DNA of 64,000 nt from an uncultured Prevotellaceae bacterium. GTDB taxonomy: Bacteria > Bacteroidota > Bacteroidia > Bacteroidales > Bacteroidaceae. The notes beneath the pieces were generated by a model. That model made no database searches, was not told where the DNA came from, and saw only the letters and a program-made list of their open reading frames with translations. Numbering within the stretch: position 1 is the stretch's first letter; every line of letters starts with the position of its first letter. This document shows, in pieces, positions 12,833 through 28,632 of the stretch. Position numbers and translations under genes: made by a program. The DNA is taken from positions 34,351 to 98,350 of the forward strand of contig ONCG01000011.1 in the NCBI GenBank assembly GCA_900316285.1, written 5' to 3'.

Positions 12833-14023
12833 TTACCTTCTAAACAAATCCTTAATGCCATCCATGTCGAACGACAGGGTGAAACGCAACGTCTGGTCGA
12901 GAGGGTTGCTCTTTGCAGTCGCGATGACGTAACCGGCATCGAGCGAGAACACACTCATCCTGAAACCGGCACCAAACGTGAAGTACTTACGGTTACCCTT
13001 GTTCTCGGCTTCGTGATGATAGCCGGCACGAAGGGTGAACTTATCGTTGTACCAATACTCGGCACCCACACTCCACTGAATCTCTTGCAGCTCTTCCTTG
13101 AAACCGTTCGGTGCATCGCCAAAGCTCTTCACGATACCACTAATCGATGAGATGTCGTAGTAGTCTTTCTGCACACGCTGCTGATAAGCCTCGGTAGACT
13201 CGCCTTCTTCCTGCTTCGGATAGGTAGGAACAAGCAACTTGTTGGCATCGGCTGCGAGTGTGAAGCGGTTGTAGTCGTCGATGGGAATCATCAGCGAAGC
13301 ACCCAGACGCAGGTTGGTAGGAATGAACTCAGAGTTGTCGTCGCCGCCGAAGGTAATCTTCGAACCGATGTTCGACACGTTCATACCCAAGCCCACCTGG
13401 CACTCACGGTCGCCCAGGTTCAGGTAGTCCTGATAGTAGAGGGCCACATCGGCAGCAAAGGCCGAGCCGGGAGAGGTGTCGTCGGTGTAGTCGTAGGTGA
13501 GGTCGCTATAGATGAAACGCAGAGCGGCTGCCCACGAGAACTTCTCGGAAAGCATCATCGAATAAGCCACGTCGACCGACATCTCATAAGGATTGATGGT
13601 CATGGCGTTATCGGTGGCAGAGATGTCGCTGGTCATAAACACTTCACCCAGTGAGAAGTAGCGCAGCGAACCTGAGATGGCCGAGTAGTCGCCGATGCGA
13701 TAGTAGCCTGCCAGATAAGCAAGGTCCATGTCGCTGACGAGTTCGCGAAGCCATGGTGTGTAGTTCAGCGACACACCGGCACGCGAGATGGCAAACGGAT
13801 ACTTCGCTGGATTCCAGTATTGCGAGTTGACGTCGGCCTCGGTGGCTGCACCCACATCACCCATACCGGCGGCACGGGCATCGGGGGCAATGGTCTGCGA
13901 GGTCACCGATGCATTGACGGGGTTGAACATGTCCTTCTTGTCCTGCGCCCGGCCAACGACGGCCACGAAGCACAACAACAACGCCAACAGCGCTACTTTC
14001 CTGATATTCTGTATTTCTGTCAT
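12833..14023 (-). CDS. porV: Type IX secretion system outer membrane protein PorV
   Basis: A 396-residue protein with signal peptide (VALLALLLCFVAVVGRAQ) and the PorV/PorQ-family start APDARAAGMGDVGAATEADVNSQYWNPAKY. The rest is rich in alternating short strands, as in a 14-stranded FadL-like barrel. PorV shuttles T9SS cargo from the translocon to the attachment complex and acts with the sortase PorU, whose gene lies directly upstream on the same strand. The giant proteins at 20.1 and 38.9 kb are plausible clients. Confidence 0.93.
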   Translation of the reverse strand: MTEIQNIRKVALLALLLCFVAVVGRAQDKKDMFNPVNASVTSQTIAPDARAAGMGDVGAATEADVNSQYWNPAKYPFAISRAGVSLNYTPWLRELVSDMDLAYLAGYYRIGDYSAISGSLRYFSLGEVFMTSDISATDNAMTINPYEMSVDVAYSMMLSEKFSWAAALRFIYSDLTYDYTDDTSPGSAFAADVALYYQDYLNLGDRECQVGLGMNVSNIGSKITFGGDDNSEFIPTNLRLGASLMIPIDDYNRFTLAADANKLLVPTYPKQEEGESTEAYQQRVQKDYYDISSISGIVKSFGDAPNGFKEELQEIQWSVGAEYWYNDKFTLRAGYHHEAENKGNRKYFTFGAGFRMSVFSLDAGYVIATAKSNPLDQTLRFTLSFDMDGIKDLFRR

Positions 14024-14107: not shown

Positions 14108-17100
14108 TTAAGGGGCAATAACAACGAGTTTCTTGGCCTTCGACACCTGCTTGCTGCCGTCTGACGAGATGCTGACACGATAGAGATAGACGCCCGTCTG
14201 CAGTCGCTGACCGCCATCGACGGTGAGGTCCCATGTCAGTGTGTAGGCACCATTGGTTGAAACACCGCTCTCGTTGTGACGCCACAACTGCCGGCCACTG
14301 GTGTCGAAGATGTCGAGTTCCACATCAACGGTGCATCCCGTACGATCGTGGCTGATGATGAACGTGGTACCAGTTCTTGCAGGATTCTGCGTACAGCTCA
14401 CGCTGAAGAGCTGCGGGGACAGTCCCTTCACAACGTTGAACGACAACTGGGCCGTCGACGAGTTGTTGAGCACGTCCCACGCACGGAAGAGCAATGTATG
14501 CATGCCGGGCTCCAACTCAGGTATATTATAATAGGTGGAACCGGTGGTATAGCTGCCGAAGTCGAACTGGAAGTTGTCGTTCAGCACGTAGGTCTTCGAC
14601 ATGTCACCATCGATGATGAGTTCCAAGTCGTGGCCGACGCCGTTTCCGGTGGTGTTGATACCGTCCTGATCGGTGAGCTGTGCCACGAAATAGGGCGTAG
14701 TGTTCACATTGCCGCCATTGACGAACGACGGGGAGTTCAGATAGCAATAGATGCTGGGACCGATGCTATCGTTGCCTGCAGTAGCACTTCCGCCCACGAG
14801 GAAATGGTCGTTGGCGCCATGGGCAAGCTGATGGTGGTCGTTTGAAACGGCATGCAGGTTGATCAATCCGGCAGCATCCTTGTAGTTGATGTCCATCGGA
14901 ACGGCAAACGACAACTGGAAGCGGCCATTGCGCACGCTGTCGTTACCGTTGTAGAGGGTCTTCGTGCGATCGCGATAGGTGAAAGCTGTCTGCGCTCCGT
15001 CCTTCTCAGTATTATTCAGTTTGCAGGTGATTGTCTCCTCGGAATCGCGAACGGTGGCAGCAACTATGCCGTTGAAGTCGCTGGCATCGGCCACATGTCC
15101 CACCACGCGGGCAATGCTGCCGGCCTTCAGCTGAGCCATCTGCACGCCATCGCCATTGGCCGCGATGCCGTTGATGGAGTCGACGACAATCGTCCTTGCA
15201 GGAATGTTCAGCGGCAGGGCCGGATCGCCGAGCAACTGATATTGCAGCATGTTCACGCTAGTATCGAGACGCTTCGTGATCATTTCGTTCTTAGCCAACA
15301 TCTGTGCTTCGCCGAGCGTAATGGGTTTGCCATCGGCGTTAACGGTGAGCACATGCCGCATAAAGGCCATATTCATCACCTTATTCTGCGTGACAAACAC
15401 CGTGCGTGCCGTGCCATAGAAGGCAATAGCACCGCCTTTGTTGTTCAAAACGGCCGTCTCGCCGATGGTAGCTGTGGAGCCGTCGTAGGGCATAATGTCA
15501 CAAGAAGCCGTGATCCACAACGGCAGATTCTTGTTCGAGAACTGCTGGAAGTCGGCCAGACGCAACACATTCTCGTGCGACACCTGATCGGCACGTCCGT
15601 GGCCGGCATAGTCCATGATGAGTGCGCCCTGCTGCTGGTATTGCTTCACGAGCTTCGTTACCTCGGGATAGCTATTACCCGTCGACGACGTCTCGCGCGT
15701 GTAGGCATCCCACATCACTTTCTTGATGAGATAGCCGGGGTGGCGCTGGTTGGTCTCGATGGCGGCATCGTTGATGTCGCGCATGTGGGCATTGCCATTA
15801 CCGTCGTCGCCCATGAACACAAGGGTGTTCTGCCAAGCGCCGGCATTTTGGTTTTCGGCATAGCTGATGACCTTGTCCACCATCACCTTTGCATCGCTCT
15901 CCGTCGTCACGGGGAAGCGGCCGACGGCCATATCGGCCAATCCGGCGGGTCGCTCATAGGGATAGCTGCCGGTGGTAAGGGCTTCGCCGTCGTCGAGCAT
16001 GCAGAAGAACTCATCGCTGACGTAGCAGTAGGTCTCGCTGAACGAGTCGTCGCTCTCGAAGCAGAGCAGGTAGTCGTCGGGCGAGGCCTGTCGCCAGTCG
16101 CTGGTGAGCATGCGGTTATCCCATGCGCAGTCGCCAAAGAGCAACAGGAAGCGCGGCTTGTCGGCCTCGGTCTCGGCACGGTCGTAGAGCATCTTCAGAT
16201 AGCGCTTGTAGGCGGTGGCATCGGGGGTTCCACTAGAGAACTCGTTGTAGAGCTCGTCGGCAGGAATGATGCGCACGCGCAGACCATCGTGAGTGCGGTG
16301 GAACTCGGCCAGCCGCTCGGCTTGCGAACGCAGCGTCTGCGTGGCAGGAATGATGATGACCATGTCAACGGCGCTGTCGCCATGCAGGTCTTGATTGGTG
16401 ATGTTATAAACGTACTCGGGTACTGCAAACTGGTCGGTGCTCAAGTTGGGTGCCGGCTTAGGATCGGGCAGGGTCAGCGAAATGAAGTCAAGTCGCACGG
16501 GACCGCCAGACAGAGTGGCAATGGAGATATCATTCGTGGCTTGTACGTCGGTGATGTTGAACACGCGATTGGTGGCGTGGCCCTTTTCGTAATAGGTCTC
16601 CGAGACGTTGATGGAGATGGTTCCGAGATCCTGCCCGTTGCACTTCACGCTGACAGCACTGTTGATGCCTGCCGACACGGTCACGGAAAGTTTCGCTGTA
16701 GTGCCCGTCACAGCCGATGACAAGGAATAGGTCTTCGACGTGCCGGCATTGATGGGCGTGTATTCATAGAGGTTCCGACCGCCCTGGAACCACGCATAGC
16801 CGTCGCTCTCATAGAGTTCATGATAGTCGGCGGGCAGCGGATAGCAGGCTGCAAGGAAATCGGATTCGCTGACGGTGAGGGGCTCTTCGTCGCTCTGCGT
16901 GAGGAAGTAGTAGCCGTAGTCGCTATAGGGATTGCGGGTGCGCTTGGTAGCGGTGTTGTTCTCCCAGCTCACAGGACCTTTCGCATAGAACAGTCTGCGG
17001 CCGCCCGAAATGCATTGTGCCACTTCATGCAGGTCGTCGGTCTGCTGCAGATAGTCCTGCGTGAGCAATTCCGGTTGCAGGTTGCCGCCATAGCCATACA

Positions 17101-17836
17101 CCTTCACCTTATTGATATCTGAGAAGCCGGCCTTGCGAATGAGCTCGTCAGTAATCTGGAACACGCCTGACTCCGGCACCCGAATCTTTGCCCAACGGCC
17201 AGAAGCAAGGACGGAAGAGGCAACCCCTCCCCTACTCTGCGCAAGGGTGGGAGCCCGATGAACCTTTGAGGAAAAGCCGCCGTCAGTAAAGGTATTCACA
17301 CCCTCTTCCCCTCGCAAGGAGTTGGGGGTGGGTGTCACCTTCAGCATGAAACTCACAAGCCACTGATAGCGCCCTTCGCGATAAACCAACGGACAGAAGC
17401 CGATGCTGAGGAATCCCTTTCCACGACTCGCCATCACCGTCTGCTCTATCTGCGGCAACTCTGGCAAAGCGCCATCCACCAAACTATTATCTACACTCCC
17501 ACACTCCTTTACTCCTACACTCCTCAAAGACTTGTATCTCACCACATCAATCGTTGTAGCATCAATGAATTCGGGATAGAGAATCTGCACGTCGTAAACG
17601 GAATCCTGATAGTTCTCGCCAAGGGACACACTATATCCGAAGTGTGGAAGCACGGAGTCTATCTTCACATCGTCATAAGTCAGGTTGAAGAAGCGCTGCG
17701 ACCACGTCGTTGTAGCACACAAACAAAGCAACAAAACCGCCACAAAACGCATGGACGTATGCACACAACAAGTCACGGCAGCAAGCAAACGTTGCCACCG
17801 CGCCATCACTTCGTATGACGTGTTATGTCTCTTCAT
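14108..17836 (-). CDS. porU: Type IX secretion system sortase PorU (C25 gingipain-like)
   Basis: A 1242-residue protein. The C25 catalytic core lies in the middle, with MDYAGHGRADQ placing His near residue 745 and LWITASCD placing Cys near residue 779. The C-terminus has the T9SS-type sandwich domain ending in YLYRVSISSDGSKQVSKAKKLVVIAP. PorU removes the C-terminal signal of T9SS cargo and attaches the cargo to A-LPS. The start is uncertain: ATG at 17836 gives a long N-region, ATG at 17752 gives a clean signal peptide MRFVAVLLLCLCATTTWS. Residues about 166-205 (near LRGEEGVNTFTDGG and LAQSRGGVASS) are encoded by two palindromic repeats (17222-17338) and look like an insertion. Confidence 0.92.
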   Translation of the reverse strand: MKRHNTSYEVMARWQRLLAAVTCCVHTSMRFVAVLLLCLCATTTWSQRFFNLTYDDVKIDSVLPHFGYSVSLGENYQDSVYDVQILYPEFIDATTIDVVRYKSLRSVGVKECGSVDNSLVDGALPELPQIEQTVMASRGKGFLSIGFCPLVYREGRYQWLVSFMLKVTPTPNSLRGEEGVNTFTDGGFSSKVHRAPTLAQSRGGVASSVLASGRWAKIRVPESGVFQITDELIRKAGFSDINKVKVYGYGGNLQPELLTQDYLQQTDDLHEVAQCISGGRRLFYAKGPVSWENNTATKRTRNPYSDYGYYFLTQSDEEPLTVSESDFLAACYPLPADYHELYESDGYAWFQGGRNLYEYTPINAGTSKTYSLSSAVTGTTAKLSVTVSAGINSAVSVKCNGQDLGTISINVSETYYEKGHATNRVFNITDVQATNDISIATLSGGPVRLDFISLTLPDPKPAPNLSTDQFAVPEYVYNITNQDLHGDSAVDMVIIIPATQTLRSQAERLAEFHRTHDGLRVRIIPADELYNEFSSGTPDATAYKRYLKMLYDRAETEADKPRFLLLFGDCAWDNRMLTSDWRQASPDDYLLCFESDDSFSETYCYVSDEFFCMLDDGEALTTGSYPYERPAGLADMAVGRFPVTTESDAKVMVDKVISYAENQNAGAWQNTLVFMGDDGNGNAHMRDINDAAIETNQRHPGYLIKKVMWDAYTRETSSTGNSYPEVTKLVKQYQQQGALIMDYAGHGRADQVSHENVLRLADFQQFSNKNLPLWITASCDIMPYDGSTATIGETAVLNNKGGAIAFYGTARTVFVTQNKVMNMAFMRHVLTVNADGKPITLGEAQMLAKNEMITKRLDTSVNMLQYQLLGDPALPLNIPARTIVVDSINGIAANGDGVQMAQLKAGSIARVVGHVADASDFNGIVAATVRDSEETITCKLNNTEKDGAQTAFTYRDRTKTLYNGNDSVRNGRFQLSFAVPMDINYKDAAGLINLHAVSNDHHQLAHGANDHFLVGGSATAGNDSIGPSIYCYLNSPSFVNGGNVNTTPYFVAQLTDQDGINTTGNGVGHDLELIIDGDMSKTYVLNDNFQFDFGSYTTGSTYYNIPELEPGMHTLLFRAWDVLNNSSTAQLSFNVVKGLSPQLFSVSCTQNPARTGTTFIISHDRTGCTVDVELDIFDTSGRQLWRHNESGVSTNGAYTLTWDLTVDGGQRLQTGVYLYRVSISSDGSKQVSKAKKLVVIAP
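17222..17338. repeat. Two palindromic repeats inside porU
   Basis: Copies at about 17222-17258 (CCCCTCCCC...GGGTGGGAG) and 17300-17338 (CTCTTCCCC...GGGGGTGGG) lie in frame in the N-terminal part of porU. Confidence 0.65.
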
Positions 17837-18167
17837 CTATCAAACAAACGTAATTCGCCGCAAAATATTGTGCTGAGTGGAAACAAAATAGGGTAACAAT
17901 TTGCAATTTGCCTACACCCCAAAACATGGGTAAAGAAATAGCAGATGGCACAAATACGGCCTGCTCTTGGCCCTTTGGGACGCTTTCAGAGCAAAGCAGG
18001 GAAAGAAAGGCCAGCAGCTCATAGCCCCGGGCATCATCTTGAGTGACGAGATGCTGGAGATGTCATGCTATGCAGATGGCACAAAAAACGGCCTGTAAGG
18101 CCAAAAGCAAATAGCCCAGGGCATCGCCCTGGGTGGCATGGCGTAGGAGTAATCGCGCCCTATAGGG
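17837..18167. other. Intergenic region upstream of porU with decayed repeats
   Basis: No gene is seen. Two related segments start GCAGATGGCACAAA at 17943 and 18071, each followed by CGGCCTG. A hairpin CCCAGGG-catc-(g)CCCTGGG lies at about 18115-18134. The segment near 17975-18010 (GGGACGCTTTCAGAGC...) resembles one inside the flippase gene at 34519-34550. These look like remnants of interspersed repeats. Confidence 0.45.
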
Positions 18168-18585
18168 GCAAAAGCATCATGTCCAACAACCAAAAGCACC
18201 TCTCTCGAATCTCTAAAGCACCACTATTAATACTCTCGAGCATTGCTCCCGTGGCACCAAACCATTGCTCTCGTGGCACCAAACCATTGCTCCCGACACC
18301 CTACTCCATTGCCTTGATTTCATAAATTAACCGACTTTATTCAGCAAATTAAGTTAATTTGTGCAGTAAATTAAGTTAATTTACCCAGTAAAATAAGTTA
18401 ATTTACATTGCAAATTAAGTTAATTTACTCATCAAATTAAGTTAATTTACTGAACGATAGCAATGCTCCTGAATCACGAAAGCATTCTTCCGCACACACA
18501 AAAGCACACCTCTTAATGCACAAAAGCACACCTCTTAATGCACAAAAGCATGCTTCCAGCTGTATGGAAGCATGCTTTTCGTTTG
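18168..18585. repeat. Array with strict 22-bp period, 19 units
   Basis: Cutting the sequence every 22 bp from 18168 gives 19 units without a single indel. Units share an A-rich start and an AGCA/CCA/TAA core at positions 3-9 (for example CAAAAGCACACCTCTT in units at 18498 and 18520, identical). Five units at 18344-18453 share the odd palindrome AAATTAAGTTAATTT with 7-nt variable spacers. Units at 18256 and 18278 share ACCAAACCATTGCTC. So local sub-families replace each other while the phase is kept throughout. Confidence 0.9.
18544..18579. terminator. Perfect 15-bp hairpin at array end
   Basis: Arms AAAAGCATGCTTCCA (18544-18558) and its complement (18565-18579) with a 6-nt loop. They come from two adjacent 22-bp units, the second being partly the reverse complement of the first. 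It could act as a terminator, but no gene clearly ends here on the plus strand. Confidence 0.4.
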
Positions 18586-18629
18586 TCTATATGCTTGACA
18601 TCATGGGTAAGTCCCTATGCAAGCGAGCC

Positions 18630-19352
18630 TCATCTCACCCAGAAATCCAGGAGTTTCTCGCCTTCGAGATAACCCTCCAGATGGTCATCCACATGAACGG
18701 GGCCTACACCAACGGGTGTTCCTGTATAGAGCATGTCGCCCGTCTTCAGCGTGAAGAAACGGCTGATGTAGCTGATGAGCTCGTCTATCTTATACAGCAT
18801 GTCAGCCGTATTGCCCGTCTGCACCGTCTTTCCGTTGATGTCGAGGTGGAAGGACAACCCGTTCCGGAGTCCATCCCAGTCTTTCTTAAGGGAGGGTTCT
18901 TCTTGGGCTTTCGCGACGGAGTCACCACCAGCAAGAGCCTCCACGCCCTCTTCCTTCGGGAGGTCCGAGCTGGGTTCCTGACAAGAAATGGTTCTCCACT
19001 CACCTAACGCAGCACTTCCGTCGAAGGCCTTAGCAATCTCCCAAGGATGTCCATTGTCCTTCAATCGGCGCTGTAGGTCGCGAGCCGTGAAGTCGATGCC
19101 CACGGTCACAGCGTCGTAGTAGCGATGGGCAAAGCGCTCGCTGATGTTTTTGCCAAGCCGGCAGATACGCACCACCACTTCCACTTCATGATCCACGCGC
19201 CCCAGATGCTCTGGCAGGAAGAATGGCTTGCCGTTCTTCAGCAACGCCGACTCAGGTTTCATAAACACTACAGGCTCAGCAGTTTTATACTTGCGGCCAT
19301 CCATCTCCTCGTTATGGAGTACGTAGTTTTTTCCGATGCAAAAGATTTTCAT
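18630..19352 (-). CDS. Fumarylacetoacetate hydrolase (FAH) family protein
   Basis: A 240-residue protein with the FAH-fold motifs KNY near the start, EPVVFMKPESALL near residue 26, HEVEVVVRICRLGKNI near residue 55, GIDFTARDLQ near residue 85 and GDMLYTGTPVGVGPV near the C-terminus. Family members are metal-dependent hydrolases, decarboxylases or isomerases of acylpyruvate-like compounds; the substrate here is not clear. About 40 residues in the middle (EPSSDLPKEEGVEALAGGD...EPSLKKDWD) are not FAH sequence; they are encoded by two palindromic repeats (18887-18975) inserted in frame, leaving the motifs on both sides intact. Confidence 0.88.
   Translation of the reverse strand: MKIFCIGKNYVLHNEEMDGRKYKTAEPVVFMKPESALLKNGKPFFLPEHLGRVDHEVEVVVRICRLGKNISERFAHRYYDAVTVGIDFTARDLQRRLKDNGHPWEIAKAFDGSAALGEWRTISCQEPSSDLPKEEGVEALAGGDSVAKAQEEPSLKKDWDGLRNGLSFHLDINGKTVQTGNTADMLYKIDELISYISRFFTLKTGDMLYTGTPVGVGPVHVDDHLEGYLEGEKLLDFWVR
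18887..18975. repeat. Two palindromic repeats inside the FAH-family gene
   Basis: C-rich/G-rich elements (minus strand CCTCCCGAAGGAAGAGGGCG and ACCCTCCCTTAAGAAAGACT) are read in frame and add about 40 residues between conserved motifs. Confidence 0.6.
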
Positions 19353-19426
19353 GTCTTGTTGTTACTGAAACTTATTGGATTTCTTCAGTAATATAACGCA
19401 TTTACCTTCAATATATTGCAGAAAAA

Positions 19427-19480
19427 CGGGAACTAATTGGAACAATCTTCATGCTTGATTCTTATTCCAATTAGCTCCCG
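19427..19480 (-). terminator. Terminator after the small membrane protein gene
   Basis: Arms CGGGAACTAATTGGAA (19427-19442) and TTCCAATTAGCTCCCG (19465-19480) pair with one mismatch; on the minus strand a T run follows. It separates this gene from the FAH-family gene. Confidence 0.8.
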
Positions 19481-19502
19481 CTTGTTTCTCGAGAACTCTC
19501 TA

Positions 19503-19802
19503 CTAGAGACCATCGTCGGCTTCGCCGAGGTCGTCGTCGCTCATCGCGCGATAGTCCTTCACCTTGAAGCGGAACTCAAAGCCGGCGAACAGCGAACTCA
19601 AGTAGAAACCGCCACCTTCTCCGCCGCCACCGCCGACAGACTCCATGTCGTCGTCGTTGCCCAGCAGATTGTCTATCCACGATGTCGTGGGCGGCTCATA
19701 CGATCCCACCTCCGTACCCTCGTTGCTCTTCACATAGAGGAAGATCAACAACAGCACGAACGCTGCAATCACAATGAATCCTTTTCCGTTTCCGCTTTGC
19801 AT
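19503..19802 (-). CDS. Small single-pass membrane protein, unknown function
   Basis: A 99-residue protein starting MQSGNGKGFIVIAAFVLLLIFLYVKS, with one membrane helix at residues 8-24. A Gly/Glu-rich linker (VGGGGGEGGGFYLSS) and an acidic C-terminus (MSDDDLGEADDGL) follow. I do not recognise the family. It lies downstream of the small NLWDD-type gene in the same direction with a 125-bp gap and has its own terminator. The clean terminator and the helix support a real gene. Confidence 0.6.
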   Translation of the reverse strand: MQSGNGKGFIVIAAFVLLLIFLYVKSNEGTEVGSYEPPTTSWIDNLLGNDDDMESVGGGGGEGGGFYLSSLFAGFEFRFKVKDYRAMSDDDLGEADDGL

Positions 19803-19927
19803 AACCTTAATTTCCTTAAAGGGGTTAAAGAGAAGTTAGTCTGGTTTGAAAGGGGAGGAGCGGGCGGGGCTATCGTCCCTTGATGCCCTTTCACTCCCCT
19901 TTATTACCCTTTATGCCTTATGATTGA

Positions 19928-20107
19928 TTAGTCGTCCCAGAGGTTTTCGTTCCCCTGCATCTTACCGTTCTCAATCACTTGGGGACCGCCGCCCCAGCCG
20001 CCAGAGAATCCCTTAGCGTCTGCGTGGTCCTGCGACTGAATCATCAACTTCCCCTCTTGGGTGTAAGCAACAGTCTCTGTTGTGGGCTTTAAATATATTT
20101 TCTTCAT
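19928..20107 (-). CDS. Small NLWDD-type partner protein A (59 aa)
   Basis: A 59-codon gene 16 bp behind the giant secreted protein. It begins MKKIYLKPTTETVAY, has AKGFS in the middle, a Gly/Trp-rich stretch (GGWGGGP) and ends NLWDD. A strong AGGAGGA Shine-Dalgarno sequence precedes the ATG, unusual in this phylum where most genes here lack one. A homologue with the same start, AKGFS and NLWDD ending follows the paralogous giant protein at 38.7 kb. It has no signal peptide. The function is unknown; the pairing suggests a chaperone, inhibitor, maturation target or peptide precursor linked to the large protein. Confidence 0.85.
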   Translation of the reverse strand: MKKIYLKPTTETVAYTQEGKLMIQSQDHADAKGFSGGWGGGPQVIENGKMQGNENLWDD

Positions 20108-20123
20108 AATTTATGTCCTCCTG

Positions 20124-23100
20124 TTACTTTACAATGATTTTCATTCCGTTAACGACATATACACCAGCGGGCAGAGCAACTGTCTGTGATGTACCAGCAT
20201 TCAGATTCATGTTTGCCATAGTCACACCATTCAGGGCATGGATTCTTACATTCTTATCTACAGCAGATGTCACTGTGACAAAACCCTTTCCTGTCTGGAT
20301 GGCGAAATCAATCTTCCGCTTAATATCCTTGATACCCGTAACTTCAGAATCATTGAACAATGCCATGAATGACGTAAGCTTGCTGAGACCAGTGCCAGAT
20401 ACTGAATAGTAGGCACGGAACGGGTAGATGTACAGATAAGGCCTAACCAAATCAGCTGTGCTACGGAAGAATCCTGATGCATAGTAGAAATAAGTGTTGG
20501 AGTCAGCCTTCTTATCAATCTTCTTTCCAGAGTATGAACCCATATTCTGGAAGTCGAGATTTCCATCATGATAAGATGTCGTTACTTCCTCACCCCACAA
20601 GGTATAATCATCTTTATAATTAGTAGCTGTAGGAGTAGCTAACACTTTTGCACCCGTCTGTTTGATGGTAAAGATATTATCATCTGTTCCAGAAGATGTG
20701 GCCTGCACCATATAAGGTTGGTTAGCTACAGCTGACTGACCACTGATAGCACCAAATGTAGCTTGGACTATCGAACCGGTTCCTGCATCTTCAGCATCTG
20801 ACATACTACCTGTCATACGTGTAAATTTAAGATCCGTAGTGGAGAGGAGAACATCGAATGGCAAAATCACACTCTGATAAGCCGTGCGCTTGTAATTATT
20901 GTTCTCATCCTCCTTGAAGACAGCCTCACGAGTATACTGTGCATACTTGGCTGCACCTACCTGAATATCATACGGAGCAAAGAAAGGCTTGCGATCGGTC
21001 AATACGATGTTACCACCGGCATTGAATGCACCACTACCTGTCTTATAAGCAAAGTTGTCAGCGGTGGAGGTCATATTTTCGGGCAGATAAACCAGAGCAT
21101 TGGGAGCAAGATTCTCCTTGAAACTCTCCAAGCTATAATCGCCAGCACTGGCAACAATCGTACGCAAATCGCTACCATCGACATAAAGAATCTGATCTGC
21201 CGATTCGGGAGCATTGCTTCCTCCGATAGTAGATCCGACAACAAGTTGAGTTGATACGCCATTAAAGGCGTCAAGAATCTCCTTCACTGACAAGTAACCA
21301 CCTTTAACAGGTTCTGACAATGGCTCACCATCATCATCTGTATCATAAGCTAACAGCTTCAAACCCCACATCGGCTTTTCTGCATCAATAGTCTTGCCGT
21401 TTTCAACATCAGCATAGCAGGTAGCATCGTATACCTTCGTCCAATCGAAACCGGGAACATAGTTCTTTGCAACCAATTCGATATCCATGCGGTAGAAGGC
21501 ATAGCTGCGGTGCTCTAAAGCGGTAGTAGGAGCAATGTTATAACGGGTTTCATCAGCAGTAAATACAAAGTAGATACCACTCTTCTGATTCTCCTTGGAG
21601 GCATTCATAACAATTTCCTTGAATTCACCTTTCTTATCGGTACCATCTGGATCGTCAGAACCGAGATACTTCGACACAGAGAACTGGTATTCTTTCAGGG
21701 TTTGGGTGGAACCTGTACCCGTAAGTTCTTCCGCATTGTTGAACTCAAAGCGAATATTACCTGCTCTCAATGTATAAATTTTATCTGTACTTGCTGCGTT
21801 TGGGTTATATCTGTTATCATACAAGCCAGCATCACCCGAAGCGTCAGCGCCACTGGCAGCATTGTTTGCCACACCGTCGAATTCCTGGAAGTAGGGTGAA
21901 GTCACATAGCTATAACGTGCATTACCTTCACCACCATAGCTGGCATCGCCATAATCACTTGACAAATCACGGAAGCTAAATGTTAGGTCACTATTGCTGT
22001 AGTCTGTCGGGATGTAGAAGATAAACTTGCCACCACTCACCTTGAAGTCATTGGCCGTAAACGGCTGGATAATTTCCAACTGCTTACCTCCAACATTCTC
22101 ACTCTGACATACAATATTCATACTATTGATATATGGATTCAGAGCCTCTAACTGCAACGTGACATTCACAAGAGCCTGACAACCTGTTGCTACATCTTTA
22201 ATCTTGAACATCACAGCATCGTTGTTGATATTCTCCAATTCATAAGTGCCTTTGTCAGCTGCACTTCTTACCGTTTTTGTAAAGACAGGAGTCGTTTTAT
22301 TGGTGCCATAAACCTCAATCGTATACTCGCCAGGCGTGAAAGAAGGCAAGTCTACTGTATAAGTACCATTAATAGCAGTGGCTGTTGCCAGGTCTGAATT
22401 GGCATTTTGTGTTACATATCCCCTTCGGTGAGTGGTGCCACCCTCTTGGATGCTAACATAGTTCAAATAGTAGTAATTACCACCATCACTCAGATAATAG
22501 ACACGACCATCGCTGGCAACTCTCAAATTCCATGTTGCTTCATGACCGGAAGCTGCCGAACCCAACGAAAGGATACGCTGGGTACCCGTTCCGAAGCACG
22601 ACAGGTAGCGCTTATAATCATCACCTGTATAGAGGTTACCAAACTCATCCATCTGCCACACAAACGCATTGGCTTGAGTAGATTGGACGAAATCCAAATT
22701 GTCATTCAAATAATAACCATTTCCACCGCTAATACGATATCCATTGGCGATTGAAATTGTTCCACCTTCGGTTGCCGTACCCCAATCATAGTTGAACGTG
22801 GCACCAACAACTCTAAAACCAATAGGCGATTCCCAAGCAGAGGCAGTTTCAATCGTGGTGGGAGGCTCAATAAAGAACGTTCCTTCGCCAAAGGCAAAAG
22901 CACCCTTTCCGTCGAGTTCTAAGGGATAAATATGCTTATTCTCTGCAACACCTTCGGAAGGTTTTCCTCCATTAATGGCATCTTCTTGATACAACCAAGT
23001 GTAAGCAATAAGATCACGCACACCCGTATAATCATAAGTATAAACACCATCCTTTAATTCAATAGCACCCACGTCCATCTTACTCGTTGAGAAAGGAGAT

Positions 23101-23960
23101 CTCACAACACTAACAGCCTCACCTGGTTTAGCAGGCATAACCTCTGCATCAAACGTACCCTCTGCTGTAAAAGTAATCTCGAAATGCTTAATAGTAACAG
23201 CATATTGATATGGAGAATCACGATTTTCACCGCTTGCACCCATCCAGAAGTGAAGCTGGTTGCTCATGTCAGAAGGAGTCTTACTAGTACGAGTGATGAC
23301 AAATTCCTTAGCCTGATTCGTAGCATTGTTATTCTGCATCAACGTTGAACCGTCAGCGGCAGTTGCAACTGCATAATACTCATAATTATGATCATCAAGA
23401 TTTGTAATATTATAGTGTGTATTTGATGCATTACCAGTAGTCGCACCAGGCCTAATATAAGGATTACCTTTACTCCAAGCAGGTGTCTCATAAAAACACA
23501 TCGTATCATCAGTTCCGATACTCCATGAGTTCTTTCCTGGATGTAGGGTGATGGTACCAGTAATATTGGGTTGCAGCACTAACCGGTAACCCGTGATACG
23601 ATAACCCTTGGGCAGAGAAACAACTACGAAGGTCTGTGTCTGACCGGCACCGATAATCAAATTGCCATTGTAAACATCAATGGCACAAGAGGGGTCGGCC
23701 AGTTCACCGGCACCCGTAAGGTTGGCAATGTCAGAAGTAGTCATAGTCAGCGCTAACTGCTCATGACGCCACATGGAGGCCATGCCTCTTCCGATACCAG
23801 AGTCTCCAGTGTTACCACCAGCCTGACCGGTAATCAAACTACCGTTGTTCGGGCCGATCGTCACATTCTGCGCCTGCACGTTCGTTGCAAACGCAGCGAG
23901 GAAGAAGATGGCGACAAGAGCGTGCCATTTCTTCAGAATTCCTTTAGTAGATTTTTCCAT
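20124..23960 (-). CDS. Giant secreted protein A with T9SS-like C-terminal sorting domain
   Basis: A 1278-residue protein from the ATG at 23960 (an in-frame ATG at 23966 is also possible). The signal peptide is visible (WHALVAIFFLAAFATNVQAQ). The body is Thr/Asn/Gly/Tyr-rich, as in beta-rich adhesins or glycan-binding proteins. No catalytic motif is recognised. The last 70 residues (VTVTSAVDKNVRIHALNGV...LPAGVYVVNGMKIIVK) resemble a type A T9SS sorting domain. A paralogue of similar length lies at 38.9 kb, sharing blocks such as AETRYNIAPSTA/ADETRYNIAPTTA and LYVDGS. Expected location is the cell surface via PorU/PorV. Confidence 0.85.
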   Translation of the reverse strand: MEKSTKGILKKWHALVAIFFLAAFATNVQAQNVTIGPNNGSLITGQAGGNTGDSGIGRGMASMWRHEQLALTMTTSDIANLTGAGELADPSCAIDVYNGNLIIGAGQTQTFVVVSLPKGYRITGYRLVLQPNITGTITLHPGKNSWSIGTDDTMCFYETPAWSKGNPYIRPGATTGNASNTHYNITNLDDHNYEYYAVATAADGSTLMQNNNATNQAKEFVITRTSKTPSDMSNQLHFWMGASGENRDSPYQYAVTIKHFEITFTAEGTFDAEVMPAKPGEAVSVVRSPFSTSKMDVGAIELKDGVYTYDYTGVRDLIAYTWLYQEDAINGGKPSEGVAENKHIYPLELDGKGAFAFGEGTFFIEPPTTIETASAWESPIGFRVVGATFNYDWGTATEGGTISIANGYRISGGNGYYLNDNLDFVQSTQANAFVWQMDEFGNLYTGDDYKRYLSCFGTGTQRILSLGSAASGHEATWNLRVASDGRVYYLSDGGNYYYLNYVSIQEGGTTHRRGYVTQNANSDLATATAINGTYTVDLPSFTPGEYTIEVYGTNKTTPVFTKTVRSAADKGTYELENINNDAVMFKIKDVATGCQALVNVTLQLEALNPYINSMNIVCQSENVGGKQLEIIQPFTANDFKVSGGKFIFYIPTDYSNSDLTFSFRDLSSDYGDASYGGEGNARYSYVTSPYFQEFDGVANNAASGADASGDAGLYDNRYNPNAASTDKIYTLRAGNIRFEFNNAEELTGTGSTQTLKEYQFSVSKYLGSDDPDGTDKKGEFKEIVMNASKENQKSGIYFVFTADETRYNIAPTTALEHRSYAFYRMDIELVAKNYVPGFDWTKVYDATCYADVENGKTIDAEKPMWGLKLLAYDTDDDGEPLSEPVKGGYLSVKEILDAFNGVSTQLVVGSTIGGSNAPESADQILYVDGSDLRTIVASAGDYSLESFKENLAPNALVYLPENMTSTADNFAYKTGSGAFNAGGNIVLTDRKPFFAPYDIQVGAAKYAQYTREAVFKEDENNNYKRTAYQSVILPFDVLLSTTDLKFTRMTGSMSDAEDAGTGSIVQATFGAISGQSAVANQPYMVQATSSGTDDNIFTIKQTGAKVLATPTATNYKDDYTLWGEEVTTSYHDGNLDFQNMGSYSGKKIDKKADSNTYFYYASGFFRSTADLVRPYLYIYPFRAYYSVSGTGLSKLTSFMALFNDSEVTGIKDIKRKIDFAIQTGKGFVTVTSAVDKNVRIHALNGVTMANMNLNAGTSQTVALPAGVYVVNGMKIIVK

Positions 23961-24101
23961 AATCATTAATTTTAAAATTATAAGTTTATTCAAATAATTT
24001 GCAAATCGCAGAATCCCCTCTATCCGTCATGCTTTTCACAAACGGCATCAGGGTTTTAGTTCTACAGGCACCTTCTGCCTGACACTACTTTAGTTTTCAA
24101 T

Positions 24102-24110
24102 GCAAAAGTA
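24102..24110 (-). promoter_or_regulatory. -7 box of giant protein A
   Basis: TACTTTTGC on the minus strand, with an ATTG about 20 bp upstream as a weak -33. It leaves a leader of about 135 nt that contains the hairpin AGGCA-gaagg-TGCCT. Confidence 0.55.
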
Positions 24111-24423
24111 AGGAAATAATTTAAAAAATGCAATGATTTTATAAAAAAAAGTTCGATTTCATCGCATTTTGTTCCAAAAATCCAAATTGATGAACGATTT
24201 GTCCAAATTTATTCAGCCTTTTTTGCATGGTAAACACCACATGAGTTTTCATGGACAACAACAAATTGGAGTACGAAAACAAATGGGAACAAGCAAAAGA
24301 GGCGGAAAAGCATGGGTAAAGCAGTAGGAAACATGACTATCTAGTTCCGATTCGCATAATCTTCTAAATCTATGGAATCTGTAGATAGGATGAACCAACT
24401 AACACTCATCCTCGAAACCTGAA

Positions 24424-24554
24424 ATCGGTAGACAATAAGAGTGATGTCATGGACAATGTGAGTGATAGTTGTGAACTACAAGAGTGATAGATATAGGCAA
24501 CAGGAGTGATATCCATGAACAACATGCATGATGGCTGTGGAAGAAGCAGCCGAT
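24424..24554. repeat. 22-bp-period array, 6 units (tsf side)
   Basis: Six units, each ending in GAGTGAT or a variant (GCATGAT, GCCGAT). Five are 22 bp and one is 21 bp. The first parts of the units vary, with ACAA-rich middles. The array lies between giant protein A and the tsf terminator; the sequence just to its left (24111-24423) shows no gene, and units there are too decayed to define. Confidence 0.75.
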
Positions 24555-24556
24555 AC

Positions 24557-24595
24557 AAAAAAAACGTCAGCCTTTCTTCGCAGAAAGGACTGACG
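24557..24595 (-). terminator. Terminator of the rpsB-tsf group
   Basis: The stem CGTCAGcCTTTCT/AGAAAGgaCTGACG (24565-24595) is followed on the minus strand by eight T (24557-24564). Confidence 0.9.
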
Positions 24596-24709
24596 CCAAC
24601 AAATAAAATTATGAAAAATAAATTATTACAAATATACCCTCACGGGCTGTATCGATAAACAAAAGTTTTTCTAAAAAGTGTCACAATTGTTTACGATCGA
24701 CTTTGCGTA

Positions 24710-25705
24710 TTACTCTGCAACCAGAGTGAAACGCTTGAAGTCGACGATCGACAGCTCCTTGTCCTGCTGGGCGAGCCACTGGCTAACAGTAGCCTTGTCG
24801 CCGTCACCGAACTGGAACTCCTGGTCAACCAGGCAGTTCTCCTTGAGGAACTTCTGCACGCGACCCTTGGCAATGCCCTCAATCATAGGCATCTTCAGCT
24901 GGGCCTCGCCCTCTGCCTTAGCCTCGGCAATGATCTTGCGAGCTTCGTCGGCCTGCTCCTTTGTGAGCCATCCCTTCGACATGTTCGACTCGATGTGGTC
25001 TTCGCTGTCAACGAGGTTGGGGTTGATGCCAGCCTTCTTCAGCTTCATGTCGACGAACTTCTGCACCTGCTCGAGCTTGGTCTTCTCAACAGCGGTCTTG
25101 TACTCCTCGTCGAGAATCTTCTGATCAACGCTCTGTGCATTGAGAGCAACGGGCTTCATAGCTGCCACCTGCATGGCGAGCTTGTGACCGGCGTCGACGT
25201 TCTCCTTGTTGAGCTGAACCATGGTGCAGAGGATGTGCTTACCCATGTGGTCGTAAACCTCAACATTGTCACCGGTAAGGGTGAGGTATCCGTCGAGCTC
25301 CATCTTCTCACCGGTGATACCCGAACGCTGAGTAACAACGTCCTGAGCCTTCTGACCGTTGATGTCGAGTTCCTTTACCTCGTCGAGATTCTGGCACTTG
25401 GCAGCCACAGCGGCGTCGAGGATGGTCTGAGTCATAGCGATGAAATCGGCACCGTTAGCAACGAAGTCGGTCTCACACTTCACAGCAACCATAGCAGCAA
25501 AGCCCTCTACCTTCTTCACGAGCACGCAGCCGTTGGAAGTCTCACGGTCGGAACGCTTGGCAGCAATAGCCAGTCCGCGCTCACGGAGCAGCTCCTTAGC
25601 CTTATCGAAATCGCCTTCAGCCTCAGTAAGGGCCTTCTTGACATCAGCCAGACCGGCACCTGTCATTGCGCGCAGTTTCTTGATATCTTCAATTGTAATA
25701 GCCAT
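24710..25705 (-). CDS. tsf: Elongation factor Ts
   Basis: A 331-residue protein with the UBA-like start IEDIKKLRAMTGAGLADVKKAL and the signature MVAVKCETDFVANG, residues about 71-84. EF-Ts exchanges GDP for GTP on EF-Tu. It is longer than the enterobacterial protein because the C-terminal part is extended, as usual in Bacteroidetes. It follows rpsB in the same direction with a 43-bp gap and ends before a strong terminator. Confidence 0.97.
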   Translation of the reverse strand: MAITIEDIKKLRAMTGAGLADVKKALTEAEGDFDKAKELLRERGLAIAAKRSDRETSNGCVLVKKVEGFAAMVAVKCETDFVANGADFIAMTQTILDAAVAAKCQNLDEVKELDINGQKAQDVVTQRSGITGEKMELDGYLTLTGDNVEVYDHMGKHILCTMVQLNKENVDAGHKLAMQVAAMKPVALNAQSVDQKILDEEYKTAVEKTKLEQVQKFVDMKLKKAGINPNLVDSEDHIESNMSKGWLTKEQADEARKIIAEAKAEGEAQLKMPMIEGIAKGRVQKFLKENCLVDQEFQFGDGDKATVSQWLAQQDKELSIVDFKRFTLVAE

Positions 25706-25748
25706 AATTCAAATGTAAAATTGATGATTAATAATTGAGAAATGATAA

Positions 25749-26603
25749 TTACTCAGCGGCGGGAGCCTCTTCCTCCTGAGCAGGAGCCTCTTCCTGAACG
25801 GGAGCTTCCTGAGCGGGAGCCTCAGCATCCTTGCGAGCCTTGCGGGCGCGGCGGGGCTTCTGCTCGGCAGCTTCTTCAGCCTGCTCGGCGGCAGCCTTCT
25901 CGTCGGCCTTCTCAGCCTTGCGCTCCTCGAGACCCTCGGCGATAGCCTGGCAGCAGGCAGTCAGGATGACGTCTACTGAATCCTTAGCGTCGTCGTTAGC
26001 GGGGATGACGAAGTCGATGTTGTTAGGATCGCTGTTGGTGTCGACCATAGCGAACACGGGGATGCCAAGGCGGTTAGCCTCGCGCACGGCGATGTTCTCC
26101 TTCAGCACGTCGACAACGAAGAGTGCGCTGGGCAGACGGGTGAGGTCAGCGATAGAGCCGAGGTTCTTCTCGAGCTTTGCGCGCTGGCGAGTCACCTGCA
26201 GGAGCTCGCGCTTCGACAGGTTGGCGAATGTGCCGTCCTGCATGAGCTTATCGATGTTAGACATCTTCTTCACAGCCTTGCGGATGGTGGGGAAGTTGGT
26301 GAGCATGCCACCGGGCCAACGCTCGATGACGTAAGGCATGCCTACGCTTGTAGCCTTCTCGGCTACGATGTCCTTGGCCTGTTTTTTAGTAGATACGAAG
26401 AGGATCTTCTTTCCTGCCTTCGCGATCTGCTTCAGGGCTTCAGCAGCCTCGTCGACCTTGGCGACAGTCTTGTGCAGATCGATGATATGAATGCCATTGC
26501 GCTCCATGAAGATGTAGGGAGCCATGGCGGGATTCCACTTACGCTTCAGGTGGCCGAAATGGCAGCCTGCCTGCAGCAGCTGGTCAAAATTTGTTCTTGA
26601 CAT
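25749..26603 (-). CDS. rpsB: 30S ribosomal protein S2
   Basis: A 284-residue protein starting MSRTNFDQLLQAGCHFGHLKRKWNPAMAPYI, with the S2 signatures ILFVSTKKQAKDIV and GIPVFAMVDTNSDPNNIDFVIPANDDA. The last 55 residues form an Ala/Glu/Pro-rich repetitive tail (AQEAPVQEEAPAQEEEAPAAE), a low-complexity extension common in this group. It is followed by tsf and preceded by rpsI. Confidence 0.97.
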   Translation of the reverse strand: MSRTNFDQLLQAGCHFGHLKRKWNPAMAPYIFMERNGIHIIDLHKTVAKVDEAAEALKQIAKAGKKILFVSTKKQAKDIVAEKATSVGMPYVIERWPGGMLTNFPTIRKAVKKMSNIDKLMQDGTFANLSKRELLQVTRQRAKLEKNLGSIADLTRLPSALFVVDVLKENIAVREANRLGIPVFAMVDTNSDPNNIDFVIPANDDAKDSVDVILTACCQAIAEGLEERKAEKADEKAAAEQAEEAAEQKPRRARKARKDAEAPAQEAPVQEEAPAQEEEAPAAE

Positions 26604-26687
26604 AATTGTTGTTTTGCTTTTTGATTTGTTTGTTTACTTTCTTTTTCGATTCTCTCTTAGAATCCAACCAGCGGGTAGTCCTTTTTT

Positions 26688-26769
26688 CGGTTAACGGTAA
26701 ACGGTTAACGGTGAACGGTTAATGGTTATCGGTTACCTTGTCACCTTGTTACCTTGTTACTTTGTTACC
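26688..26769. repeat. Short tandem repeats between rpsI and rpsB
   Basis: A run of GGTTAACGGT-like units (26688-26742) followed by four 8-bp units of ACCTTGTT type (26744-26769). It sits in the 281-bp gap between rpsI and rpsB. No promoter is obvious beside it. Confidence 0.7.
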
Positions 26770-26884
26770 TTTTTCAGAGTCCTGCCGGTTTAGATGCTAA
26801 ACCGTTCAGTTATAATCAGTGTGACAGGGATAGTTGTAAGTAATAAACACTATCAACCACCAACTGCCAACTATCCACTGAATA

Positions 26885-27271
26885 TTAACGCTTACTGAAC
26901 TGGAAGCGACGACGTGCCTTCGGCTGACCCGGCTTCTTGCGCTCAACCTCGCGAGCATCGCGGGTGAGGAATCCGTGGTCCTTCAGGGCCTTCTTGTCCT
27001 CGGCATTGATCTTCACCAGTGCACGGGCGATAGCCATGCGCAGAGCCTGGCTCTGACCGGTGAAACCACCACCGTCGAGGTTTGCCTTGATGTCGTACTT
27101 CTCTTCAACGCCCAGGAGCTGCAGGGGCTGCTTCACAACGTACTGCAGAATGCCTGAGGGGAAGTACTTGTCGAGTTCACGCTTGTTAATAACGATCTTG
27201 CCGGTACCCTCTGTGAGGTAAACGCGAGCTACTGAGCTCTTACGACGGCCTATTGCATTGATCTGTTCCAT
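26885..27271 (-). CDS. rpsI: 30S ribosomal protein S9
   Basis: A 128-residue protein with start INAIGRRKSSVARVYLTEGTGKIVINKR and the basic C-terminal end KKPGQPKARRRFQFSKR, which reaches the P-site tRNA in the ribosome. Length and order are normal. It lies 38 bp downstream of rplM in the conserved rplM-rpsI pair. Confidence 0.97.
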   Translation of the reverse strand: MEQINAIGRRKSSVARVYLTEGTGKIVINKRELDKYFPSGILQYVVKQPLQLLGVEEKYDIKANLDGGGFTGQSQALRMAIARALVKINAEDKKALKDHGFLTRDAREVERKKPGQPKARRRFQFSKR

Positions 27272-27309
27272 ATCTTTTATTTCGACTTTTTACGTTCAAC
27301 CATCAACGA

Positions 27310-27771
27310 TTACTTATACAGATTGATATCGATAGCCTTCGGCTTCTGTGCCTCGTGCTTGTGCTCAGTACCATTGTAGACATAGAGGTTGTCGAGCAGA
27401 TGACGGCCCAGACGACCCTTCGGGAGCATACCCTTCACGGCGTGCTTGATGATGCGCTCGGTACCGAACGGACGCTTGCGCAGCTCGGCGGGAGTGTTGA
27501 AGCGCTGGCCACCGGGATAACCCGTGTAGCGGGTGTAGAGCTTCTCGGTCTCCTTCTTGCCAGTGAAGACCACCTTGTCGGCGTTGATGATAATCACGTT
27601 GTCGCCACAGTCCACGTGCGGGGTGAATGTGGGCTTGTACTTTCCGCGGAGCAGCTTGGCTACCTTTGTGCAAAGACGACCGACAACCTGGTCGGTAGCG
27701 TCGATGACCACCCACTCCTTCTTAGCTGTTTCCTTGTTAAGGGAAATAGTCTTGTAACTTAAAGTATCCAT
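27310..27771 (-). CDS. rplM: 50S ribosomal protein L13
   Basis: A 153-residue protein with the L13 blocks WVVIDATDQVVGRLCTKVAKLLRGK and VKGMLPKGRLGRHLLDNLYVYNG. It is the first gene of the rplM, rpsI, rpsB, tsf group. In other bacteria L13 expression is under feedback control through the leader; a 5' leader of about 150 nt with the hairpin GGGGAG...CTCCCC exists here, but its role is not known. Confidence 0.97.
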   Translation of the reverse strand: MDTLSYKTISLNKETAKKEWVVIDATDQVVGRLCTKVAKLLRGKYKPTFTPHVDCGDNVIIINADKVVFTGKKETEKLYTRYTGYPGGQRFNTPAELRKRPFGTERIIKHAVKGMLPKGRLGRHLLDNLYVYNGTEHKHEAQKPKAIDINLYK

Positions 27772-27926
27772 TTCTGAATTAAAAATTTTACTACTAAAAA
27801 ACGTTTTTATTTAAAATAATGTATACATCTGCACGAGCGATTCACTAACCACGATGCCTGGCCAAAGACACCGCTATTAACACTCCCGTGCTGGGGAGCC
27901 TAAGACTCTCCCCGAATAATCGGACT

Positions 27927-27935
27927 GCAAAGGTA
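27927..27935 (-). promoter_or_regulatory. -7 box of the rplM group
   Basis: TACCTTTGC on the minus strand, about 155 bp upstream of the rplM start. No convincing -33 TTTG is seen. A hairpin with arms GGGGAG and CTCCCC follows in the leader. Confidence 0.6.
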
Positions 27936-28147
27936 CGAAGATTCTGCCGAACAGCGAAGACAGCATGGGGATAAAAGTCGTTGATTTAATGTTATTTAAT
28001 TGATTTTAGGTTTTTTAACGTCAATTTTTACCAACTAACGGTGCTAGATTATGAAAACGGCACATCGATGTTACTTGATTTCAGCTCTCTTTTTGTCCCC
28101 TTGAAGATACGAAAAAACGCGTGTCTGACAGGAGGAAAACTGCCCTT

Positions 28148-28567
28148 ATTCACCAATAGCTATGATGTCATTCACCAATAGCTATGATGTCATTCGCCTG
28201 GAACTATGATGTTATTCATCTGGAGCTATGGAGTTATCCATATAAAGCAATGATGTTATGCGCCATTAGCATAACTCCCATCAAGTAATATATGATATAT
28301 TGCAAAGTAATATATGATATATTGCTCGGTAATATATGATATATTGGTCAGTAATATATGATATATTACTTTGTGATAAAAGATATATTACTTCATCAAA
28401 GCAATACTTTGGATGCATAAGACGATGTCTTTCGGCTTATAAAAAGAGAGCTTTTGAAGGACGAGAGCATGCAAATTGACAAGAAAGGTGCTGCTTTATA
28501 TATAGAAAGGTGCTGCTTCATATATAAGAAAGGTACTGCTTTATAGACAAGAAAGGTGCCGCTTTAT
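28148..28567. repeat. 22-bp-period array, about 19 units (rplM to GH2 gene)
   Basis: Seventeen consecutive 22-bp units from 28148 to 28521 without indel, then two of 23 bp. The first two are identical (CACCAATAGCTATGATG core). Units 7 to 10 share TAATATATGATATATT with 6-nt variable spacers. The last four share AGAAAGGTGCTGCTTT-like cores. The boundaries between sub-families fall exactly on the 22-bp grid. Most units keep an AGC at the same phase (AATAGCTATG, AAAGCAATG, TTAGCATAA, CAAAGCAATA, GAGAGCATG). Confidence 0.9.
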
Positions 28568-28632
28568 ATATAAATAAGGTGTACCACCTTGGCGAATGTG
28601 CACGGGGATTATATAAAAAAAGAATAAATTCT

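Follow-up and report, generated by a model that had tools for sequence, protein, structure and literature searches.

Intergenic arrays of 22-bp palindromic units around an AT-rich core in an uncultured Prevotellaceae bacterium and its relatives

An intergenic gap of an uncultured Prevotellaceae bacterium, a rumen Prevotella, contains 418 bp of DNA in which units of 22 bp follow one another in register and their letters change from unit to unit. The question raised by this locus is what such an array is and what holds its step. The window is the whole stretch of DNA analysed, 64,000 nucleotides (GenBank assembly GCA_900316285.1, contig ONCG01000011.1, positions 34,351 to 98,350 of the forward strand), and coordinates refer to it unless a contig or locus is named. 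G, C and L numbers are our handles for genomes, contigs and loci, G000 being the genome of the window. The array and its neighbours, with genes named from Pfam, are the following.

12833–14023, PorV (PF19572), following the peptidase C25 gene
14108–17836, minus strand, peptidase C25 gene (PF01364), neighbour of the array
17940–18145, dispersed repeat (AGCAGATGGCACAAA...GGCC...AGGGCATC), two copies adjoining the array, off its grid
18168–18585, the whole 22-bp-period array, 19 units, in a gap flanked by two minus-strand genes
18168–18321, seven outer units of the AAAGCA... and CATTGCTC types, on the grid of the core
18322–18453, minus strand, AT-rich core of six units; the minus-strand reading approximates the family consensus GTAAATTAASTTAATTTRC plus 3 bp, and the unit at 18322 is degenerate
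18454–18585, six outer units, right side of the array
18630–19352, minus strand, FAA_hydrolase family gene (PF01557), neighbour of the array

The peptidase C25 gene is presumably PorU-like. The initial annotation had described nineteen consecutive 22-bp units without an indel, and 18168–18585 indeed divides in this way. The period was confirmed by autocorrelation: the self-match of the segment was 0.65, 0.53, 0.48, and 0.42 at lags of 22, 44, 66, and 88, compared to a background of about 0.27 ± 0.024 per lag with a maximum of 0.35 in 500 dinucleotide shuffles. Over all lags, another 300 shuffles reached at most 0.37. Chance periodicity was ruled out by the shuffled sequence. Adjacent units have from 5 to 22 identical letters out of 22, so the sequence varies and the phase is constant. 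The words CCATTGCTC and AAAAGCACACC occur twice each. The palindrome AAATTAAGTTAATTT, previously assigned to five units, is exact in four of them (18346, 18368, 18412, and 18434); the fifth (18388) departs from it at a single position. At the right end, AAAAGCATGCTTCC (18544–18557) and GGAAGCATGCTTTT (18566–18579) of the last two outer units are opposed and form a possible hairpin. The units are contiguous and have no spacers, and a CRISPR array was rejected.

Two more arrays of period 22 were found in the window.

24431–24541, third array, outer-type units only (GACAATRNGAGTGATAG...)
28144–28605, second tripartite array, with different sequences
28144–28275, its left outer units
Starts 28285 to 28373, its AT-rich core, five units (GTAATATATGATATATTGC), step 22
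28474–28605, its right outer units, steps 22, 23, 23, and 22 (28483–28573)

The statement that the phase never changes is true of the window array, 18168–18585, but fails between 28483 and 28573, where two steps are 23, and one of 37 oriented arrays, L063, apparently loses register inside. Array L237 of genome G172 (16841–17206) has the same build as 28144–28605 and a similar spelling. An L13-Bacteroidia ribosomal protein leader (RF03127, 77.2 bits) is located near 28144–28605, at 27839–27913 on the minus strand.

Arrays of this family are numerous in G000. Grouping of 82 pattern matches gave 40 places, at least 38 with an AT-rich core and two others; because 40 of the 85 candidates were scored, the number 38 is a minimum, and the core-only query yielded 42 candidates. 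Period 22 was the most frequent intergenic one, with 26 of the 84 segments in 455,673 bases of G000, namely the window and 20 stretches picked around known arrays. Locally shuffled G000 sequence contained zero periodic segments. Period 77 accounted for 16 of the 84 segments, mostly from one CRISPR-like array. A long CRISPR-like array with a period of 76–77 lies at L064 1039–4516 (contig C25, 49038–52515). None of 41 G000 arrays was flagged inside an ORF, with ORFs lying mostly within an array removed beforehand and one array at a contig edge left unclassified.

The order outer–core–outer recurs in 37 arrays oriented with an iterated profile, a count which leaves out L055, dropped before orientation. 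Six core units were counted in 26 of the 37; the other arrays have four (2 arrays), five (2), seven (4), or eight (3). Among the 43 loci of relatives, 28 of the 33 countable ones also had six. L055 (7889–8567, contig C15) carries about 14 core-like units where six are usual. Core units are position-specific: the identity of same-position units between arrays was 0.808 vs. 0.747 ± 0.001 with the unit order shuffled. The outer motif RAGCAWTGCTY, present at least once in 33 of the 37 arrays, was in phase with the core grid in 103 of 106 hits. A second type of array consists of outer units only, for example C12:112–337. The tandem outer unit gave 267 + 268 pattern matches in G000, the outer arms of core arrays included, vs. 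0 + 0 for the reversed pattern.

The GC content of the core was 0.18–0.24 vs. 0.41–0.46 in the five units on each side. Such a core, together with a period of two turns, would suit intrinsically bent or easily melted DNA, in which the 22-bp step phases A-tracts and the core takes up supercoiling with no sequence-specific protein involved. This explanation is very unlikely, since the outer units are not AT-rich, neither AGCA.TGCT in G000 nor GGAGG..CCTCC, conserved in the outer units of G035, is a bending motif, and bending needs no species-specific dyad.

The unit is composed of a 19-bp palindrome and a 3-bp linker, which places the site centres 22 bp, or about two helical turns, apart. The outer profile RCNARAGCAWTGCTYTNGT and the core GTAAATTAASTTAATTTRC have a common centre at grid position 10. 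Outer sites resemble those of the core at the outer edge and differ from them in the inner letters. Characteristic words of G000 are GTAAATTAA and AGCAWTGCT. An excess of dyad symmetry, defined as at most 2 of 60 column permutations being as good, was detected in 40 of 47 segments of G000, 5 of 9 of G016, 6 of 11 of G010 (two of the 11 being masked N runs), and 13 of 19 from other genomes.

Mirrored positions of the unit were compared for covariation. Among 299 outer units, none of the nine mirrored pairs covaried positively (z from 0 to −5; −5.0 for pair 1–19 and −2.9 for pair 3–17). These units were chosen by at least 5 of the 8 letters of AGCA.TGCT, a filter that forces part of the result at positions 6–14; pairs 1–19, 2–18, 3–17, 4–16, and 5–15 lie outside it. 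The core showed small positive covariation in five of nine pairs, with pairing of 0.90–0.99, which we read as symmetric constraint; a stem would give the same result. The lack of compensatory change in the outer arms favours a dimeric protein over RNA hairpins.

As RNA, the window array folded better than shuffles on both strands (z −6.7 and −8.9). We take this fold as a by-product of palindrome rows, any of which would do so. For the 16 arrays, out of 37, that were folded, the real unit order was on average about 3 kcal/mol (some 3%) more stable than within-class permutations, and it was the more stable one in 12 of 16 arrays on each strand. Complementarity between left and right outer units was 0.514 within one array vs. 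0.533 between different arrays, and nested outer pairs gave 0.538 (n = 109) vs. 0.531 for other pairs (n = 420). An Rfam search of positions 17000–29500 yielded only the L13 leader at 27839–27913 and no match on the array. A transcribed array acting through RNA hairpins, one long hairpin, or a DNA cruciform would account for the fold scores, the gain from unit order, and the slight core covariation, but not for the absence of positive covariation in the outer units or the lack of array-specific complementarity between the two sides; with no Rfam match on the array either, we regard it as very improbable and rejected an RNA element.

The arrays also have a polarity. Core pairs 1–6, 1–5, 2–6, and 3–6 matched better when reverse-complemented (0.85 vs. 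0.77 for 1–5 and 0.77 vs. 0.67 for 1–6), and the middle core units matched better as read (0.91 vs. 0.84 for 3–4). Left outer units compared with right outer units of other arrays gave 0.533 reverse-complemented and 0.486 as read. The mirror symmetry of the array is a tendency and has no exact plane; a slight asymmetry of the site tends to be reversed between the left and right ends.

Arrays of period 22 are also present in related genomes, as the initial annotation had expected. G010 and G016 are near-complete genomes of the genus and were sampled over 400 kb each in 20-kb stretches placed blind to arrays. Period 22 was the commonest one in both, with 21 of 30 segments in G010 and 20 of 38 in G016, the latter having 4 more at period 44. 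None of the 21 segments of G010, and one of the 24 of G016, lay mostly inside an ORF of at least 100 aa; a coding repeat was ruled out by the position of the arrays outside ORFs in G000, G010, and G016. Period-22 segments were found as well in G167, G162, G006, G047, G028, G035, G003, G004, G017, G001, G216, G172, and G366, many stretches of these 13 genomes having been chosen for known matches. There were none in G032, G103, and G019 (20 kb each), G009 (40 kb), or G248 and G361 (60 kb each). Beyond the family, 15 genomes of the order were represented by about 263 kb, in which no segment had period 22; G210 had one of period 23, and G209 had one of period 20 and another of period 21. Of 29 short loci of the family (25 from other genera and 4 from the same genus), two gave hits, both in other genera and one of them palindromic. 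The latter, L294 2595–2700 (G479, another genus of the family), has period-22 palindromes around ACGTACGTACGT and suggests that the array plan extends beyond the genus. Arrays of period 44 occur beside 22-bp arrays at L135 2475–2671 and L141 294–420 (G016) and L190 14923–15136 (G004).

Palindromic units were recovered without a symmetry constraint in G010 (r = 0.99, 21 arrays), G016 (0.97, 20 arrays), G366 (0.94, 4 arrays), G006 (0.99, 5 arrays), and G167/G162 (0.97, 3 arrays), and for each of these five motif sets, 0 of 500 column permutations were as good. A single core-less array of G000 gave r of 0.59, again with 0 of 500 permutations as good. The G010, G016, and G366 units have unrelated inner letters; the G006, G167, and G162 sets are variants of the G000 core because they were reached via similarity to it. 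Symmetric EM with a preset width of 19 produced the half-sites GTAAAAGAT in G010, GYAATTTGA in G016, CCAAAAGTT in G366, GYAAATTAA in G006, and GTAAATTCA in G167/G162. Characteristic words were GTAAAAG in G010 and GYAATTTG in G016. A GYNA outer edge is mostly shared across species, the edge in G366 being CC instead of GY. Sites were spaced by 22 in 64 of 90 cases in G010, 82 of 95 in G016, 15 of 18 in G366, 16 of 17 in G006, and 9 of 9 in G167/G162, counts that are no independent evidence because the arrays had been selected by period 22. G010 repeats the outer–core–outer plan, and its nine core-bearing arrays have a core of three (7 arrays) or four units (2 arrays); in four of the nine, the first and third units are reverse complements by exact pattern.

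We propose, with a probability of roughly 0.6, that the array consists of successive sites bound by a dimeric protein, which assembles cooperatively along one face of the helix. The 19-bp dyads, the fixed grid centre, the outer units without stem-like covariation, and the species-specific motifs point to this. Weak letter conservation, dispensability of the array at the locus, a partial polarity change, the slight core covariation, the fold gain of about 3 kcal/mol, the CC edge of G366, a dyad excess that is not universal, and L055 with its approximately 14 core-like units count against it, as does the existence, to our knowledge, of many minisatellites with no known function. Binding could nucleate on the AT-rich core and spread outward both ways, giving a nucleoprotein segment of about 350–420 bp. 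Slippage or recombination would add and remove whole units, and selection would keep the phase, the dyad, and the core number. The initial annotation had named a cooperatively binding protein or copying with a fixed step; protein binding is the better supported by the dyads, the fixed centre, and the species-specific motifs, and copying holds in part, as unit gain and loss by 22 or 44 bp.

Units are gained and lost whole. The differences between arrays L050 and L122 are exact multiples of the unit, two blocks of 22 bp and one of 44 bp; a single block of 44 bp, made of core units, distinguishes L084 from L118. L118 belongs to G415, which seems to be the same genome as G216 and is one of the nearest relatives found, with 74–85% at the window locus; 667 of 763 columns agree between L084 and L118. 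The array segments of L050 and L122 (RGIG2694) are nearly identical, with neighbour proteins up to 99%, in genomes otherwise distant. In G414, which holds L122, neither the peptidase nor the FAA-hydrolase gene of the window locus has a match at 1e-10, and the L050/L122 segment is therefore read as a recent transfer or MAG mixing.

Letters turn over faster than positions. Similar neighbour genes were found in 26 locus pairs, and 17 G000–G172 pairs were compared. In 14 of the 17 the gap is shared, as judged by a matching neighbour gene no more than 900 bp from the core in G000 as well as in G172; L056–L100, L059–L112, and L070–L128 are the pairs not shown to share it. Core identity in the 14 pairs was 0.69–0.93 with a mean of 0.83, compared to 0.81 for paralogous arrays. 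Conservation of individual letters at a locus is therefore weak: gaps are kept and letters turn over. At the window locus, 59 loci with an FAA-hydrolase or peptidase neighbour comprised 43 with both genes, 15 with one gene and the other not nearby, and the genome itself. No period-22 segment was present in the gap in any of the 43, and the genes abut in most. The gap measures 79 bp in G172, 101 bp in G216, and 797 bp here; G001 has an array on the opposite side of the FAA-hydrolase gene. The array is thus dispensable at this locus and was most likely gained here together with its flanking repeats.

This history could be that of a selfish or neutral minisatellite whose slippage has a mechanical step of two helical turns and leaves the sequence free. 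The whole-unit differences, the restriction of the array to G000 at this locus, and the closer similarity of outer units within an array (0.59 left, 0.54 right) than between arrays (0.51 and 0.48) are in line with it, as are satellites in the literature that match the arrays in size but have unrelated sequences. Free slippage would not lead one to expect a six-unit core in 26 of 37 arrays and at 28 of 33 relatives' loci, nor position-specific core units, and palindromic units in species with unrelated inner letters and a common centre for core and outer units of different sequence also speak against it. We consider a minisatellite of this kind unlikely.

The view that no described element has these properties was too strong. 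Subirana and Messeguer (PMC8161180) described bacterial satellites of 20–23 nt whose size is constant and whose sequence varies; in the sections available, they propose a role for nucleoid proteins or small RNAs and note short words that are constant within a species. “Prevotella,” “Bacteroid,” and “palindrom” are absent from the main text of PMC8161180. The present arrays share with the satellites, as far as these sections describe them, a repeat length close to two helical turns, multiple sequence families within a genome, species specificity, non-coding position, and shared short words, and the defining constant length with varying sequence, non-coding location, and species-wide short words were all found here. 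They differ from the satellites so described by the 19-bp dyad, an AT-rich core nearly constant in number, position-specific units, and the GYNA edge. The nearest case within Bacteroidales is BrickBuilt of Porphyromonas gingivalis, an intergenic 23-nt minisatellite at 19 places in ATCC 33277 (PMC4596501). The available part of this source presents BrickBuilt as one sequence family and as a MITE with leader and tail ends, and “palindrom” is absent from the source. BrickBuilt thus resembles our arrays in being an intergenic tandem repeat and differs, by the same partial account, in its unit of 23 nt instead of 22 bp and in its ends, no conserved leader or tail being present here. The BldC protein of Streptomyces is, in the part of PMC5859096 available, a small regulator forming a cooperative multimer on a variable number of direct repeats; it binds head-to-tail on asymmetric direct repeats, unlike the dyad units with a 22-bp step considered here. 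The literature searched contained no dyad-built or tripartite 22-bp arrays of Prevotella; tables of J Bacteriol 2020 e00229-20 may include Prevotella.

The flanks of the arrays are rich in repeats. The word CATGGGTAA stands on both sides of the window array (17925–17933 and 18602–18610) as a possible target site duplication, and the G172 and G216 spacers do not align there. Some other repeat is shared by 31 of 74 array flanks. Dispersed intergenic repeats (AGGGCATCGCCCTGGG and GTAGGGACGCGGCGTGCCGCG) occur in the same gaps as arrays. No common flank was found at a fixed position within 250 bp on either side of 37 arrays; shared flank repeats vary in offset, side, and orientation, which indicates the absence of any constant leader or tail. 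Similarity to the array family declines where the grid ends. A Y1_Tnp transposase family, of interest for a possible REP/BIME unit moved by a RAYT transposase, is present at three places of G000. Blastn of the window array against plasmids and phages gave no match, and viral contigs did not contain the exact core pattern; a phage or plasmid origin was ruled out by these missing matches. A mobile element of MITE or REP-like type, dispersed through the genome and carrying a 22-bp minisatellite incidentally, in the manner of BrickBuilt, would explain 38 related copies, the lineage-specific presence here with CATGGGTAA on both sides, the transposase at three places, and the repeats in 31 flanks. 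We find it rather improbable in view of flank repeats without fixed offset, side, or orientation, the fading at grid ends, and the lack of plasmid, phage, or viral-contig matches.

Plasmid iterons are tandem sites of about 22 bp on one helical face at a single plasmid origin. The likeness lies in the tandem 22-bp sites; here there are dozens of chromosomal arrays, and iterons were rejected given 38 core-bearing places on 22 contigs and no plasmid match.

Forty arrays of G000 had 24 co-directional, 11 divergent, and 5 convergent gene contexts, compared to 73, 22, and 21 for other gaps of at least 150 bp. With no clear context bias, a terminator or promoter role was rejected. Array orientation was independent of gene direction (12 vs. 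11 co-directional cases). The flanking ORFs, 69 of 74 of which were scanned, contained 94 Pfam families, the commonest being sigma-70 regions 2 and 4 in three members, with Penicillinase_R and outer-membrane barrels among the families in two. A theme among flanking genes was rejected, as no family occurred in more than 3 of the 69 ORFs. Because the arrays sit between unrelated genes in any orientation, our guess is that they may serve chromosome organisation or insulation of neighbouring transcription units and not the control of one pathway. As a broader and tentative proposal, which we think doubtful at present, one conserved family of dimeric proteins may act across the lineage on a 19-bp dyad whose edge is fixed and whose inner half-site evolves fast; at scores of chromosomal sites it would spread in both directions in 22-bp steps from an AT-rich core of fixed copy number, the arrays would mark chromosome position and serve its organisation, and protein and sites would co-evolve. 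Satellites of fixed size and free sequence have been a puzzle so far without a mechanism. The anatomy of the arrays, in which outer half-sites decay independently, narrows this puzzle to finding a dimeric protein. It also defines the bait DNA exactly and allows clear tests of spacing. Confirmation would mean that a genus abundant in gut and rumen possesses its own nucleoprotein system with rapidly rewired specificity.

Core arrays of G000 were more evenly spaced than chance (CV 0.45 vs. 0.83 for uniform placement, P 0.002; 16 gaps on nine contigs), with a smallest gap of 20 kb (P 0.003). The 38 core-bearing places are on 22 contigs, and 73 zero-mismatch pattern matches fall on 20 contigs, all among those 22. 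Sixteen contigs have no core array: C12 and 15 others totalling 0.99 Mb, for which P is about 1e-5, provided all arrays were found. In G010, core-bearing arrays were present in 5 of 6 sampled stretches at C3 600–1000 kb, a region picked post hoc, and in 1 of 14 elsewhere; an extra core array, L148 19382–19557, weakens this lead. Regional enrichment of core-bearing arrays in G000 and G010 is a lead only. Noc and SlmA have tens of single palindromic sites over the chromosome that are missing from one region; the likeness to our arrays, which are not single sites, is in distribution only and is a weak lead. The dnaA gene and the core arrays of G010 are on different contigs, and the GC skew was too noisy. 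In G000, dnaA (contig C15, 214 kb) has core arrays on both sides, at 193 and 265 kb.
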